DNA from: Halogranum gelatinilyticum
Lineage (GTDB): Archaea; Halobacteriota; Halobacteria; Halobacteriales; Haloferacaceae
Assembly (NCBI RefSeq): GCF_900103715.1
Contig: NZ_FNHL01000001.1
Span: forward strand, 663,295 to 727,294
Reading direction: 5' to 3'
Length of the DNA: 64,000 nt
Shown here: positions 3,400 through 56,140 of the stretch, in pieces
Position numbering within the stretch: the stretch's first letter is position 1
Layout of the letters: each line of letters begins with the position of its first letter
Position numbers and translations under genes: made by a program
Notes under the pieces: model-generated
Seen by the model: the letters and a program-made list of their open reading frames with translations, nothing else
Databases searched by the model: none
Told to the model about the DNA's origin: nothing

Positions 3400-4410
3400 A
3401 TGTCAGCGAAACTCCGGAACAAGAACGGGCAATTATGGCTGCCGCTCCGACTGCTGTGGAACGACAACGAACGCCGGCCCAGAGCCCCCATACGTCTTGT
3501 CGTGGGAATCGTACTGGTGCTCACCCTTGCCAATACTGGCAGGACCATCCAACCCTCGGTTCTCGGAGGAGACGGCCCTATCACCGAGACCGTGAACACG
3601 TTGATTGGTGGAGTCCCCCAAGCAGCGGGGATTATCCTCGGTGTGATACTCGTCTCGCTGGTCCTTGACCGACGAATACTCACCGATTTGGGCCTCAACT
3701 TCAGATCTGGCGTGTGGCTCTCGTTCACGGGGGGACTTGCGCTCGGGATCGGAATCACCAGTCTTAGCATCGCTGTCGGAGCAGTTGTCGGATTCTACGA
3801 AATAGGTGGCATCCAGATGACCGGGGGGCCTGCTGTTTGGATACTCCTCGTACTTGGTACTGCGATCTCACAACTCGTCATCGTCGTCGCAGAAGAATTC
3901 CTCGTCCGAGGATACATCATCACGAACGTCCTCGAAGGACTGGATGGATTTCCATCCATACCACGAAGCGTGGCCGCCGGCGTCGCTGTGGTGATTGCTT
4001 CACTATTCTTTTATCTTACTCACTCTACCCGGGGAGAAGTGTTCGGCCTTATGGCTGGTGGGCTGGCTGTTCTCCTCGGTGTTGCATACGTCCTCAGCGG
4101 TGATCTCGCTGTTCCAATCGGCATTCACTTTGGTGTGAACTTCGCCGGAATGATCGGTGGATCAGCCCCGCAACAGGCGACGCTCGTCCAAGTGATGTCA
4201 CCAACAACGGTTGCGGAAGCGCTTGTCCTTCCGGCTGAGGCAGTTGTCATTCGGATTTTCGGGGCAGCTATCGGTATCGGTTTGCTACTCTGGTGGTACC
4301 ATTCGGTGAACGGCCAGATCCGAATCGTTCCGGAAGTCGCTTGCCCGAGGCTTCGCTGGAAGCGTAACAGTGAGGAATCACCAAATAGCTCTGAAAGTGA
4401 TCCGATGTAA
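3400..4410 (+). CDS. CPBP-family intramembrane metalloprotease (first copy)
   Basis: A 336-residue polytopic membrane protein with about eight hydrophobic segments. The Abi/CPBP signatures are present: EEFLVRGY (the EExxxR motif), a His in FFYLTHSTRGE, and HFGVNF (HxxxN) near the C-terminal third. Such proteins are membrane-embedded Rce1-like proteases whose substrates here are unknown; in bacteria some confer self-immunity to peptides. A TTG seven codons upstream exists, but the ATG at 3400 is preceded by GAAGGT and is preferred. Base composition is visibly more A+T-rich than the neighbours, and the gene is bracketed by same-orientation repeat copies A and B, which suggests acquisition. Confidence 0.85.
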   Translation: MSAKLRNKNGQLWLPLRLLWNDNERRPRAPIRLVVGIVLVLTLANTGRTIQPSVLGGDGPITETVNTLIGGVPQAAGIILGVILVSLVLDRRILTDLGLNFRSGVWLSFTGGLALGIGITSLSIAVGAVVGFYEIGGIQMTGGPAVWILLVLGTAISQLVIVVAEEFLVRGYIITNVLEGLDGFPSIPRSVAAGVAVVIASLFFYLTHSTRGEVFGLMAGGLAVLLGVAYVLSGDLAVPIGIHFGVNFAGMIGGSAPQQATLVQVMSPTTVAEALVLPAEAVVIRIFGAAIGIGLLLWWYHSVNGQIRIVPEVACPRLRWKRNSEESPNSSESDPM

Positions 4411-4415
4411 CCAAC

Positions 4416-4500
4416 TTGCGCGCTGTATTCAGCACGGCCACAGAAACCGACCCATTTCTTGTCACAAGCGGCGTGCAAGACTTAGAGGGTGTATGCAGCA
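4416..4500. repeat. 85-bp dispersed repeat, copy B
   Basis: Begins 6 bases after the stop of the CPBP gene. It has the same length and orientation as copy A (3210-3294), with 25 identical bases in the inner block and weaker similarity elsewhere. Its minus-strand frame reads HTPSKSCTPLVT, then VLNTARKLVTS. The gap to the next gene (4501-4575) holds no further feature. Confidence 0.65.
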
Positions 4501-38789: not shown

Positions 38790-40358
38790 TCAGTCGTCGG
38801 CGACGGGTGAGGTCGGGTCCGCGGCCAAGAGCCGGTCGAGTGCGTCGACCATCGCTACGACGCTGGCGCGGGTGATGTCGGAGTCCGAGGCGGCCACGGT
38901 GACCGTGCGGTCCCCGCGGGACATCTCGACCTCGACCGTCACCATCGCGTCCGTCCCGCCGGTGATGGCGTCGACGTGGTACGATTCGAGCTGGGCGTTC
39001 GCGCTCGCACCGAGCGCGGCGCGGACGGCCTCGACGGAGGCGTCGACGGGACCGCTGCCAGTGCCTGAGGCGACGCGTTCCTCGCCGTCGACGAGGAGTC
39101 GGACGCTCGCGGTCGGCGTTCCACCGCCGCTGGCGGCGGTGAGGTCCTTGAGTTCGACGCGACGCTCGCGTTCGCGGCCCTGGACCTCCTCGGCGATGGT
39201 GAGCAGGTCGGCGTCGGTGACGCGCTTGCCGCGGTCGCCGAGTGCCTTCACGCGGTCGACGACGGCCGAGAGCTCGTCGTCGTCGACGTGGACGTCGTGT
39301 TCCTCCAGTGCGGCCTTGACACCCGCACGGCCGGCGTGTTTCCCGAGGACGAGCCGTCGCTCGCGGCCGACCGTCTCGGGCGGGTACGGCTCGTACATCG
39401 AGTCGTCTTTCAGGGTACCGTCGGTGTGGATACCGCTCTCGTGGGTGAAGGCGTTCTGGCCGACGACGGCCTTGTTGGGCGCGAGGTCGACACCCGTCGA
39501 GCGGGCGACGAGCTGCGCGAGGTCGTAGAGCTCGTCGAGCTTCGCCGTCTCCATGTCGTAGCAGTGGTGCAGCGCGATGGCGACCTCTTCGAGTGCGACG
39601 TTGCCGGCGCGTTCGCCGATGCCGTTGATGGTCCCGTGAACCATGTCGGCCCCGGCGGCGAGGCTGGCGTAGACGTTCGTCATCGCCAGCCCGAGGTCGT
39701 CGTGGGTGTGGGTGCTTGTCGGGCCGAGCGCGGCGAGCCGCGAGACGGCCTCGTAGGTGTGTTCGGGGCTGGTGTGGCCGACCGTGTCGGCGAAACACGA
39801 GCGGTCCGCACCGGCCTCGAAGCCAGCTTCGGCGAGCCGTTCGAGGAAGTCGAGGTCGGCGCGGGAGCCGTCCTCGCCGAGGAGTTCCACCCAGAGCCCG
39901 TGGTCCTTCGCGTAGGCCACGAGCTCTTGGCTCTTCGCGACGACGTCGTCCTTCGTCGTCCCGACCTTCGTCTCGACGTGGCGGTCGCTGGCGGGCACGA
40001 CGATGGTGACGCCGTCGACGTCGCAGTCGAGTGCGAGGTCGATGTCGTTCTGGACGCCGCGGGCGAAACTTGTCACCTTGGCGTCGAGACCGAGATCCGT
40101 CACGCGACGGATGGTCTCGCGCTCGCCAGCACCGGTGCAGGCGCTGCCGGCCTCGATGACGTCGACGTTCGCGCGGTCGAGCGCGCGGGCGATGTCGGCC
40201 TTCTCCGCGGGCGTCAGCGAGACACCTGGGGCCTGCTCGCCGTCGCGGAGCGTCGTATCGAAGAGCTGTACATTTCTGTCAGAAGTGAGGGGAACCTCGG
40301 GTGAACCCCGGAATAACTCGGTCACGGTGGATGAATCAGTTGACTCGGAGAATTTCAC
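38790..40358 (-). CDS. leuA: 2-isopropylmalate synthase or (R)-citramalate synthase
   Basis: A 522-residue enzyme of the DRE-TIM acyltransferase family. The N-terminal barrel starts at LFDTTLRDGEQAPGVSLT, with metal ligands in THTHDDLGLA and NGIGERAGN. The linker (ETVGRERRLVLGKHAGRAG) and the C-terminal allosteric dimer domain (TASVRLLVDGEERVA, then AITGGTDAMVTVEVEM) are complete. It condenses acetyl-CoA with 2-oxoisovalerate or pyruvate, feeding leucine or isoleucine; the sequence alone does not separate LeuA from CimA. The ORF can start at GTG 40358 or GTG 40325; the latter lies 10 bases after a short upstream ORF and is quite possible. Confidence 0.88.
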   Translation of the reverse strand: MKFSESTDSSTVTELFRGSPEVPLTSDRNVQLFDTTLRDGEQAPGVSLTPAEKADIARALDRANVDVIEAGSACTGAGERETIRRVTDLGLDAKVTSFARGVQNDIDLALDCDVDGVTIVVPASDRHVETKVGTTKDDVVAKSQELVAYAKDHGLWVELLGEDGSRADLDFLERLAEAGFEAGADRSCFADTVGHTSPEHTYEAVSRLAALGPTSTHTHDDLGLAMTNVYASLAAGADMVHGTINGIGERAGNVALEEVAIALHHCYDMETAKLDELYDLAQLVARSTGVDLAPNKAVVGQNAFTHESGIHTDGTLKDDSMYEPYPPETVGRERRLVLGKHAGRAGVKAALEEHDVHVDDDELSAVVDRVKALGDRGKRVTDADLLTIAEEVQGRERERRVELKDLTAASGGGTPTASVRLLVDGEERVASGTGSGPVDASVEAVRAALGASANAQLESYHVDAITGGTDAMVTVEVEMSRGDRTVTVAASDSDITRASVVAMVDALDRLLAADPTSPVADD

Positions 40359-40416
40359 AGCCAGCCGCCTCGCGGCGACTTACTCTATCCTCGTCTGTCG
40401 GTGTGTGTTCCGACAT
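40336..40416 (-). other. Short upstream ORF (26 codons) before the leuA/cimA start
   Basis: An ATG at 40416 lies 31 bases after TTTTATG, the leaderless distance, and opens a 26-codon frame (SEHTPTDEDRVSRREAAGC...) that ends at 40336, overlapping the GTG at 40358 and stopping 10 bases before the GTG at 40325. It is not enriched in Leu, Ile or Val, so classical attenuation is not indicated. It may simply be a leader or a coupling element. Confidence 0.35.
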
Positions 40417-51885: not shown

Positions 51886-52491
51886 ATGATACTGTCGGAC
51901 ACCGACCTCTTGAAGCGGCTCGAACGGGGTGACCTCGTCGTCGAACCCCTGGAGGACATCGATATGCAGGTCCAGCCGTCCAGCATCGACCTCCGCCTTG
52001 GCGCGGAGTTCTTGGAGTTCCAGCGGACCAACATCTCCTGTATCCATCCCAACCGCGAGGACGAGGTCTCGAAGTACATCCGTGAGACGGTCGTCGAAGA
52101 AGGCGAGGAGTTCATCCTCCATCCCGGCGACTTCGTGCTCGGAACGACCGAAGAGCGCGTCGAGATTCCGCCGGACCTCGTCGCCCACGTCGAGGGCCGC
52201 TCCTCGCTCGGCCGACTGGCCGTCGTCGTCCACGCCACGGCCGGTCTCTGTGACCCCGGCTACAAGGGGCAGATCACCCTCGAACTCTCGAATCTCGGCT
52301 CCGCCCCCGTCGCGCTCACGCCGGGGATGCGCATCTCGCAGCTGACGTTCACCGAACTGACGTCGCCAGCGACACGCCCCTACGGCGAGGAACGCGGGTC
52401 GAAATACCAAGACCAGAAGGGACCACAGGCCTCGCGAATCGGTAACGACCCCGAGTTCGGCGGCGACACGCCGGGAGACGACCCTCAATGA
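51886..52491 (+). CDS. dcd: dCTP deaminase
   Basis: A 201-residue trimeric nucleotide enzyme converting dCTP to dUTP (or dUMP in bifunctional forms). Signatures: [43 protein letters not shown] with the catalytic Glu region, and [14 protein letters not shown]. The ATG at 51886 is chosen over an upstream ATG 14 codons earlier because of the TATA spacing. The stop overlaps the start of the ThiR-like gene by 4 bases, an unusual coupling of a pyrimidine enzyme with a thiamine regulator. Confidence 0.94.
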
Positions 52492-53390
52492 AGTTCGTCG
52501 AAGAGGTCGTCGTCGAGGAGTTCCTCCCGACGTTCCGGTCGATGCTGGCCGCCGAGTTGCGCGAGCGGGACTTCACCCAACACGAGGTCGCCGAAGCACT
52601 CGGCATCAGCCAGAGTGCCGTCTCGAAGTACGCCCACGGCAGCGTCAGCCAGTGTCAGGCCGTCCTCGACGACGAGCGCGTCCAAGACCTCGTCGTCCGT
52701 ATCGCCGAGGGGCTGGCCGCGGGCGATATGTCCAGCGTGCAGGCGCTCGTCGAGGCCGAGGTCCTGATCCGGCGGCTGGAGCAGGGTGATCTGCTCGCGA
52801 CGCTCCACGAGGAGGCGATGCCCGAACTCGCCGAGTACGACGGCGACTTCGCCATCCACGACCCCGAGAGCGACGTCCGAACCACGGAACAGGTGCTCTC
52901 GTCGGTCCGTCGCGGCGTCCGCACCCTGACGAGCGCGAGCGGCTTTGCGGGCTACATCCCGAACGTCGGCTCGAATCTCGTGGAGTGTCTGCCGGACGCC
53001 GCGGGCATCGAGGACGTCGCGGCCATCCCGGGCCGTATCTTCGACATCAAGGGCCGCGCGACGGTCCCGAGCGACCCCGAGTTCGGCGTCAGCGAGCACG
53101 TCGCTGGCGTCCTGCTCTCGGCGCGCGAGGCCGGCACGGACGTTCGCGCCGCGGTCAACATCCGCTACGACGACGACATCGTCCAGCAGTTCGCCGACGC
53201 TGGCTACGAGACCGTCGAGTTCGACCCCGACGCACCGACCGACCCCATCGTCGCCGCCTTAGCGGACGGCGCGGACGACGACACGTTCGTCCTCTATCAG
53301 ACCGGCGGCTACGGCATCGAGGCCATCACCTACGTCCTCGCACCCGACGCGCCGACCGCCGCGCGGGTCGTCCGCGAGGTCCTGCTGTAG
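52488..53390 (+). CDS. ThiR-like regulator: HTH plus ThiN (thiamine-phosphate synthase-like) domain
   Basis: A 300-residue protein. An XRE-type helix-turn-helix lies at about residues 22-60 ([20 protein letters not shown]). The C-terminal half (about 125-295) matches Thi[60 protein letters not shown] and [20 protein letters not shown]. Known archaeal HTH-ThiN proteins (ThiR) sense thiamine phosphates and repress thiamine genes; ThiN domains fused to ThiD are enzymes, but no ThiD is fused here. A likely target, thi4, lies about 2.5 kb downstream with a palindrome in its promoter. Confidence 0.88.
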
Positions 53391-54169: not shown

Positions 54170-55054
54170 ATGACTTCTTCCGACAGCCTCACCGGCCGCG
54201 TCGCGCTCGTCACCGGCGGCACGAGCGGTCTCGGTGCCGAGACCGCCCGCACGCTCGCCGACCGCGGTGCCTCAGTCGCCGTCGTCGGCCGCGACCGGGA
54301 CCGAGGCGAGACCGCCGCCGCCGACCTCGCTACCCGCACCGACGGCACCGCCGAGTTCTACCGCGCCGACCTCGCCTCGCAGGCCAGCGTTCGGCGGCTC
54401 GCCGCGGAGTTCCGCGAGCGACACGACCGACTGGACGTGCTGGTCAACAACGCCGGGACCTTCCGCGCCGAGCGGACCGTCACCGCCGACGGCGTCGAGT
54501 CGACGTTCGCGATCAACCATCTCGCGCCGTATCTGCTGACACACAGCCTGCTCGACCTACTCGTCGCAAGCCCCTCGGCGCGGGTTGTCACGGTCTCCTC
54601 GGGCATCCACACGCGGGCGACGCTGGACTTCGCGAACCTCCAAGGAGAACGTGGCTACGACGGGATGACTGCCTACGCCCGCTCGAAACTCGCGAACGTC
54701 CTGTTCACCGACGAACTCGCCGACCGCCTCGCGGAGACGGCCGTCACGGCGACCGCCGTCAATCCGGGCTTCGTCCCGGGGACGGGACTCGCCCGCGACG
54801 CGTCGCTCCGGAACCGGCTGCTCCTCGGCGCGTTCGCACGGCTGCCGCTGCCGTTCACCAAGGGGCTGGAGGAAGGGGCGGAGACGCTGATCCGGGCGGC
54901 CGCCGACCCGGACCTCGCCGACGTGACGGGAGTGTATCTCAGCGACGGCGAGGTGACGGCGTCCTCGGAAGAATCGCAGGACGAAGAAGCGAGACGGCGA
55001 CTGTGGGACGTCAGTGCGGGTCTCGTGGGCGTCTCACCCGACTGGGCCGTCTAG
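54170..55054 (+). CDS. Short-chain dehydrogenase/reductase (SDR)
   Basis: A 294-residue NAD(P)-dependent oxidoreductase with the classical motifs: [13 protein letters not shown] (nucleotide-binding), [15 protein letters not shown], and catalytic [11 protein letters not shown] (YxxxK). The closest recognisable subgroup is the retinol dehydrogenase/WW-domain oxidoreductase-like SDRs ([18 protein letters not shown]). The substrate is unknown. Starts at 54128 and 54143 are possible; the ATG at 54170 is preferred ([16 protein letters not shown]). Its stop shares the tetranucleotide CTAG with the convergent thi4 stop. Confidence 0.9.
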
Positions 55055-55977
55055 TCGTCAGCCGGGACGGGCCGCGTCAGGTCGACGGGGTCGGCGTCGA
55101 CGTCGAGCTCGTCCAGCGCGACCTGTGCGGCGCGCTTGCCCGAGAGGAGCATCGCGCCGAACGTCGGCCCCATCCGGGGGAGACCGTGGGTCGTCGCCGT
55201 CGCGAGCCCCGTCGAGACGAGCCCGTCGTGGATCTTTCCGGCGAAGTCGACGACCTTGTCCTCGCTCTCGGAGACCCACATCGAGTCGTGGCCGGGCGAG
55301 TCGTGGCCGGGCGCGCCGTACTCGCCGTCTTCCGTCTTATCCATCCCCGTGTTGTGCTCGTTGGCGTGTTCGATGCCGGGTGCGTCGAGGACGCCGCGCT
55401 CTTGGAGCTTGGAGACGACGACGGCGTCGTGGCCCGTCGCGTCGACGACGAGGTCGGACTCGACGGCGATGGGGTCGACGCAGGTCAGTTCCCGTGGCAG
55501 CGCGTGGACCGGCGTCCAGTTCATGACGATGCCGGCGACGCGGTGGTTCTCGCGGACGACGATGTCGGTGAACTCGGTCATGTTCTGCATCCGCGCACCC
55601 GCGTCGCAGGCGGCGTTGATGAGTGCCGAGCAGGCGTGCGGTCCCTTCGCCGTGTAGAGACCCTCGGCCTCGTCGCTCTCCTCGTAGGGGACGCCGAGTT
55701 CGTCGAGCACCTCGTTCGCGGGTTCGCGGACCGTCACGGTGTTCATGAGGAAGCCGCCGAGCCAGAAGCCGCCGCCGAGATAGTTGTTCTTCTCGACGAC
55801 CATCGTCTTCACGCCGCGCTCGGCGAGCTCCTTCGCGGCGACCAGCCCCGAGGGACCGCCGCCGACGACGATGACGTCGCTCTCCGAGAAGTCGAGGAAC
55901 TCCTCGCTCCACTCTTTCGTGATCGCTCGGGTGACCTGTGCCTCGTCTGCGTCGCTGAAGCCGGTGAATGCCGACAT
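55051..55977 (-). CDS. thi4: Thiamine thiazole synthase Thi4, active-site cysteine (suicide) type
   Basis: A 308-residue flavoprotein-like enzyme making the ADP-thiazole precursor of thiamine from NAD+ and glycine. Signatures: [69 protein letters not shown] and [20 protein letters not shown]. Cys166 in [13 protein letters not shown] is at the position that donates sulfur in the single-turnover fungal and Haloferax enzymes, whereas sulfide-dependent archaeal Thi4 has His there. It starts at 55977, leaderless, with a palindrome between TATA and start. Confidence 0.95.
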
Positions 55978-55980
55978 ACA

Positions 55981-56010
55981 ACCTAGTGATATTACTTGGT
56001 AGTTAAAGGT
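55981..56010 (-). promoter_or_regulatory. thi4 promoter and palindromic operator candidate
   Basis: On the minus strand TTTAA (centre near 56005) lies 27 bases before the thi4 ATG, giving a leaderless start. Between them, bases 55981-56000 (ACCTAGTGATATTACTTGGT) match their own reverse complement at 16 of 20 positions (pattern ACCnAGTnATATnACTnGGT). A dimeric repressor bound here would block initiation; the nearby HTH-ThiN regulator is the obvious candidate. Confidence 0.6.
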
Positions 56011-56140
56011 TGGCTTCCGGTCGCGGCGGGCGACGCTATCGAGGAGGTTCCGGCAGGCGACGCACGTTCTGGAACCCTTTTTCCGTCTCGGCACCAACCC
56101 CGTGTATGGACAGCCGACCAGCCTGCCGCGGGGTGCGAGT

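Follow-up and report, generated by a model that had tools for sequence, protein, structure and literature searches.

Is the palindrome in front of the thi4 gene of Halogranum gelatinilyticum an operator, and if so, which protein reads it? In the initial annotation of the 64,000-nt stretch of DNA analysed here (from here: the window), a 20-bp imperfect palindrome with 16 of 20 symmetric bases was placed between the thi4 TATA box and the start codon. This palindrome, ACCTAGTGATATTACTTGGT, was recovered at positions 55981–56000 of the plus strand, with 8 of its 10 pairs (16 of 20 bases) symmetric. Because the thi4 ATG starts at 55977 on the minus strand, the core palindrome occupies −23 to −4 relative to the ATG and lies where it had been placed, but the interval first assigned to it, 55981–56010, also covers the TATA box, as TTTAAC is located at 56002–56007. 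The conserved unit comprises 26 bp (55978–56003) rather than 20. Read on the gene strand, the promoter consists of CCAACC, TTTAAC and the 26-bp element ACTACCAAGTAATATCACTAGGTTGT, which overlaps the last two bases of TTTAAC, has 10 of 13 dyad pairs and is followed by the ATG. A regulator gene with HTH and ThiN domains, which had been noted at a distance of about 2.5 kb, is present and ends 2.6 kb away from the start of thi4. The features are as follows.

55978–56003, minus strand: 26-bp predicted ThiR operator, −26 to −1 before the thi4 ATG (dyad, matrix and 81-promoter profile)
55981–56000, no strand assigned: 20-bp core palindrome of the initial annotation (direct sequence reading)
55978–55990, minus strand: start-proximal 13-bp half of the predicted operator, palindromic in the family, centre −7 (mean self-complementarity 0.646, 79 promoters)
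55991–56003, minus strand: TATA-proximal 13-bp half of the predicted operator, palindromic in the family, centre −20 (mean self-complementarity 0.534, 79 promoters)
56002–56007, minus strand: TATA-like TTTAAC, −30 to −25, overlapping the operator edge (sequence; conserved T/T/A peaks in the profile)
56008–56013, minus strand: BRE-like CCAACC, −36 to −31 (sequence; modest conservation at −37 to −34)
55051–55977 including the stop codon, minus strand: thi4, Cys-type thiazole synthase with Cys166 in TCVDP (Pfam Thi4, E 6.7e-61; TIGR00292)
52488–53390, plus strand: thiR candidate, N-terminal HTH plus C-terminal ThiN, convergent to thi4 (ThiN, E 1e-48; HTH_3, E 3e-6)

Elsewhere in the window, a leuA-Halobacteria RNA element (RF03001) was located at 40347–40399 on the minus strand with 69.5 bits.

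Symmetry of this degree is common in the window, in which 116 of 63,981 20-mers reach at least 8 of 10 symmetric pairs and 56 26-mers reach at least 10 of 13. Palindromy was therefore rejected as evidence by itself, and conservation was taken as the evidence for an operator. Promoters were obtained from the best 80 of 583 haloarchaeal loci encoding a Thi4 relative, which had been fetched with Thi4 and together with the window provided 81 promoters; the nearest Thi4 relatives belong to Halogranum rubrum (92%) and H. amylolyticum (90%). All 81 promoters were aligned gap-free on the start codon, for which a fixed rule took the in-frame ATG closest to the match start. The element at −26 to −1 is their most conserved stretch, with variable positions such as −20 and −7 interspersed. 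The eleven best positions of the element carried 1.3–1.9 bits of information compared to 0.01–0.20 bits upstream of −40, and TATA peaks appeared at −30 and −29.

Across the 81 promoters, the dyad centre between −14 and −13 yielded a complementarity of 0.59 with 13-bp arms, compared to 0.16–0.36 at the other even centres listed. The odd centres were evaluated in 79 promoters, with L024 and L026 excluded; here, −20 (0.53) and −7 (0.65) stood out from the remaining ones (0.15–0.41), and therefore each 13-bp half is itself palindromic. The predicted operator is a 26-bp sequence of two 13-bp palindromes side by side, for which the same 79 promoters gave the majority consensus AYYACnnRnWnRTAYYACYnRGTnGT.

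In leave-one-out scoring of the region from −60 to +12, for which promoters at least 70% identical were removed from the matrix, 74 of the 81 thi4 promoters reached at least 10 bits; occurrence before orthologous thi4 genes, on which the initial annotation had let its proposal depend, was found. Below 10 bits were the promoters L025, L026, L037, L039, L040, L062 (9.9 bits) and L071 (7 of 81). A ThiR of 62–64% identity is encoded in the genomes of four of these, L025, L037, L039 and L040, which counts against the ThiR reading. The same 26-bp element is carried by six Haloferax species (L047, L051, L053, L054, L058 and L061). In the window, the element before thi4 is the top matrix match with 36.4 bits, followed by a match of 7.9 bits, with WIN, L005 and L006 excluded from the matrix.

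The matrix built from thi4 promoters only was then applied to thiC. A search of 50 of the 80 genomes detected ThiC in 31; 30 loci from 30 genomes were scored, G064 having a fragment without locus and G044 a second copy without locus. A site of at least 14 bits was present at all 30 loci scored, and at 27 of them it reached at least 20 bits. The site ends 0–3 bases before the nearest in-frame start codon in 29 cases and 15 bases before it in L172. As background served the window and the 80 thi4 loci with the thi4 promoters excluded, that is, thi4 neighbourhoods including the promoters of adjacent genes, which differ from random genome sequence; at least 14 bits were reached at 5 of 735,505 positions. 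All five sites are situated at the start of one thi4-linked gene (DUF6775/DUF7001, see below). Within the H. gelatinilyticum genome, an AT-rich palindrome on contig C10 (L114:3550–3575) scored 15.0 bits, 45 bases before a ParA-like gene (3621–4499, assigned by eye). Since this site lies away from thiamine genes, the 14-bit threshold is imperfectly specific; the palindrome is probably a partition site or the site of another regulator. A scan of the same genome with the 26-mer consensus, allowing up to 3 mismatches, returned 24 forward and 26 reverse matches compared to 9 and 16 for the backward control, and among 26 loci drawn from it three exceeded 8 bits by matrix, namely thi4, thiB and L100 (8.5). 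The half-site scan was no better than its control, with 103 forward and 92 reverse matches versus 120 and 161 for the backward sequence.

Other thiamine genes of this genome were scored on selected stretches. The site ahead of thiB and a permease gene overlaps the ATG and scored 16.7 bits (L115). A site of 17.5 bits (L113, contig C7) precedes a Thiamine_BP gene, with a solute-binding-protein gene next in line. The tenA-tenA site (L178, 18.8 bits) is located 30 bases before an ATG, and a site of 14.0 bits (L116) falls at the start codon of an AIRS/ThiL-like gene that lies ahead of thiDN. While thiB matched TIGR01254 above cut-off, the permease was named thiP from its position and weak matches alone. 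The tenA-tenA and ThiL-like-thiDN sites, with 4 of 13 dyad pairs each, are the weakest of the own-genome sites. Together with the thiC loci, these genes bear out the earlier expectation that the site recurs near other thiamine genes, albeit with weak palindromes at tenA and the ThiL-like gene. A Pfam search detected no thiC in this genome, which is 99.68% complete; the same search was positive in 13 of 14 control genomes. As thiC was not found, the predicted regulon here is thi4 plus salvage and transport, and as this is the case although thi4, thiDN, tenA and thiB are present, dependence on salvaged pyrimidine is predicted.

In the regulator candidate, HTH_3 extends over 23–51 and ThiN over 139–296. 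The own-genome search yielded two ThiN genes in all, this HTH-ThiN gene and thiDN. Among 50 relatives tested, 46 possess a ThiR of 52–86% identity, in one case split over two contigs. The sole HTH-ThiN protein of G022, G045 and G050 is 38–42% identical, and in the metagenome assembly G028 no ThiR was detected beyond a ThiDN-type match. L026 and L071, two of the loci with poor thi4 sites, belong to G022 and G050, yet the thiC sites of these genomes score 15.4 bits (L173, L164). A close ThiR is encoded convergently downstream of thi4 in 41 of the 80 loci, which span about 4 kb on each side; it is located upstream of thi4 in L083, and a 42% paralogue is upstream in L031. No ThiR-type site turned up ahead of thiR: across the preceding 1.5 kb in 30 relatives, the best scores were negative in 26 and 1.0, 1.8, 4.4 and 8.6 in the others. 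Autoregulation of thiR is unsupported by these low scores.

From the sequence comparisons, the 26-bp element is very probably the operator of ThiR, the HTH-ThiN repressor encoded at 52488–53390, which would silence thi4 under ample thiamine phosphates. The ThiR-operator reading proposed in the initial annotation hence gained support from the tests on thi4 orthologues and other thiamine genes. Since the TATA-to-ATG spacing is constant, the thi4 transcript is presumably leaderless. The sequences themselves show the conserved element, where it lies, its further occurrences at other thiamine genes and a gene for the regulator; for ThiR binding, repression and the ligand, we infer the following course from the family. 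When thiamine phosphates are plentiful, ligand-loaded ThiR would bind the 26-bp element and thereby occlude the TATA box at its downstream edge, together with the site at which the leaderless transcript presumably starts. As the element overlaps both, the bound protein would exclude TBP/TFB or polymerase, and blocking of TBP, TFB and RNA polymerase would silence thi4. When thiamine phosphates are scarce, ThiR would release the element.

Several other explanations have to be weighed. The palindrome might be a chance symmetry within a conserved core promoter of BRE, TATA and initiator that is bound by no regulator, as the 116 comparably symmetric 20-mers in the window would allow. However, the conserved letters span −26 to −1, show dyad symmetry in the 81-promoter profile and reappear at thiC, and 14 bits are reached at just five other positions of the background although the promoters of neighbouring genes are included, which makes chance symmetry highly improbable. 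Still less probability, close to none, is left for a function of the conserved segment as RNA, either as a TPP riboswitch or as another leader element. Thiamine genes of bacteria and Thermoplasmatales are under riboswitch control, which would speak for such a function, but at gathering score Rfam matched nothing in the window beyond the leuA element and a tRNA. The TPP riboswitch (THI element) had no match at this score in the 64,000 nt, on which ground the riboswitch reading was rejected. Moreover, the element is located between TATA and ATG and would therefore be mostly untranscribed.

It is also conceivable, if very unlikely, that the operator is read mainly by another protein, a second HTH-ThiN paralogue or an unrelated regulator. 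A second HTH-ThiN protein, 38–43% identical to ThiR over nearly the full length, occurs in 18 of the 50 relatives, three of which lack a closer ThiR, and could also bind. In two of five loci inspected (L279–L283; domains were scanned in two), the paralogue is divergent to tenA with a site of 20–22 bits in between. Examples of these genes are:

L282:2066–2986, second HTH-ThiN gene
L283:2072–3004, second HTH-ThiN gene

Against a second reader stands that the search of the own genome yielded just the HTH-ThiN gene and thiDN.

The thi4-linked gene with the five background sites raises the question whether ThiR controls more than known thiamine genes. The copy in L069 (L069:5281–6054) matches Pfam DUF7001 and DUF6775; further examples are:

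L036:4947–5708, DUF6775 gene
L082:5120–5884, DUF6775 gene

The DUF6775 gene was found in 27 of the 80 thi4 loci, always downstream of thi4 and on the same strand; the copy in L048 has an internal stop. With the fragment L039 excluded, 11 of 26 DUF6775 genes lie at most 30 bp from thi4 and lack a separate site. Among the 15 with larger gaps, 13 have their own site of at least 5 bits, a line drawn after the scores were seen, and L042 and L050 have none. Twelve of these 13 sites sit 0–2 bases before the ATG and the one in L049 sits 16 bases before it. In the control, in which the DUF6775 sites were left, 6 of 2,703 windows reached at least 5 bits. Mostly, the DUF6775 gene thus appears to be either co-operonic with thi4 or equipped with its own ThiR-type site.

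In a phylum-wide sample, the DUF6775 family was present in 26 of 294 genomes, with thi4 within 1.5 kb in 14 of the 26. All 80 Thi4 relatives of the promoter set possess the Cys, and the neighbouring Thi4 proteins outside the order of the window are Cys-type as well (7 of 7). Among 50 Thi4 proteins from sampled genomes without the family, VDP/IDP/TDP is preceded by Cys in 2, by His in 45, by Ser in 2 and by Ala in 1; these were chosen by score and family, their residues were counted by eye, and common ancestry confounds the Cys comparison. In the archaeal Thi4 proteins of L249, L256 and L276, Ser or Ala replaces the usual His or Cys (LSVDP, AAIDP).

A literature search by DUF6775, DUF7001 and the Pfam accessions returned no report in the library searched. 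The model of the DUF6775 protein had a mean pLDDT of 76.3, compared to 63–67 for the other four models. Foldseek returned no PDB match at E 0.001 or better for the model, nor did the sequence profile at E 1; in a second structure comparison, four archaemetzincin entries ranked first (Z 14.2–15.3), followed by an entry at 8.8. Judged from the model, the nearest predicted fold is archaemetzincin-like. An ordinary metallopeptidase was rejected as the motif HExxH is absent from all 41 sequences. The family was not found in the genome of the window and was rejected as a stand-in for thiC, since neither was found there; that thiC is present in 15 of the 20 genomes among the 50 in which DUF6775 was matched counts against this role, too. 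Tentatively, we consider that the ThiR circuit might control DUF6775/DUF7001 as a dedicated companion of Cys-type, single-turnover Thi4, handling the suicide-Thi4 problem, e.g. by binding or clearing spent enzyme or by sulfur or metal supply, and that the operator might be read as two 13-bp palindromes, possibly by two dimers. Operon arrangement and a common operator thus provide a testable link between a family without assigned function and the Cys-type thiazole synthase of archaea.

The ThiR system itself is known, and the thi4 site described here is a further instance of the ThiR switch. For Haloarcula and Natrinema, ThiR is called a central regulatory protein in PMC12029414, where two ThiR papers of 2017 are cited (Hwang et al., J Bacteriol e00810-16; Rodionov et al., J Bacteriol e00743-16), and PMC10746257 names Pyrococcus ThiR as a predicted regulon. 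Here, what is very probably a true operator was picked out by a reader of raw sequence, and regulator, operator and regulon are tied together in a genome without detected thiC.

The C-terminal domain of ThiR matches MJ0236 (2php) with E 2.5e-17, and VGSN, GRI and SEHVA-type segments are kept in ThiR, 2php and ThiDN in a comparison made by segment. Unlike MJ0236 and ThiDN, ThiR lacks the kinase domain, and the MGWG segment of the own-genome ThiDN has no counterpart in ThiR, being absent from all 31 aligned rows (window plus 30 relatives); the column of its Met holds 24 gaps, 6 Leu and 1 Val. We take the Met of NTMGWG to be the catalytic Met in the extended helix of ThiN, which ThiR is said to lack, as reportedly described by Hwang in 2017. 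The missing MGWG is in line with this.

The ThiR of Haloferax volcanii is, reportedly from the same 2017 work by Hwang, an HTH-ThiN repressor with an operator at the leaderless thi4 and thiC genes and thiamine-dependent repression. Rodionov is said to have described in 2017 archaeal ThiR regulons, Halobacteria included, in which the genes for thiamine biosynthesis and transport carry palindromic motifs that differ by lineage, and both reportedly make the same operator-to-ThiR assignment. The H. volcanii regulator reportedly controls thi4 and thiC, whereas no thiC was found in the genome studied here. The two systems resemble each other in the HTH-ThiN protein, in the operator at a presumably leaderless thi4 and in the 26-bp element, which is the same in Haloferax; with the reported archaeal regulons, the system shares palindromic sites at both biosynthesis and transport genes for thiamine.
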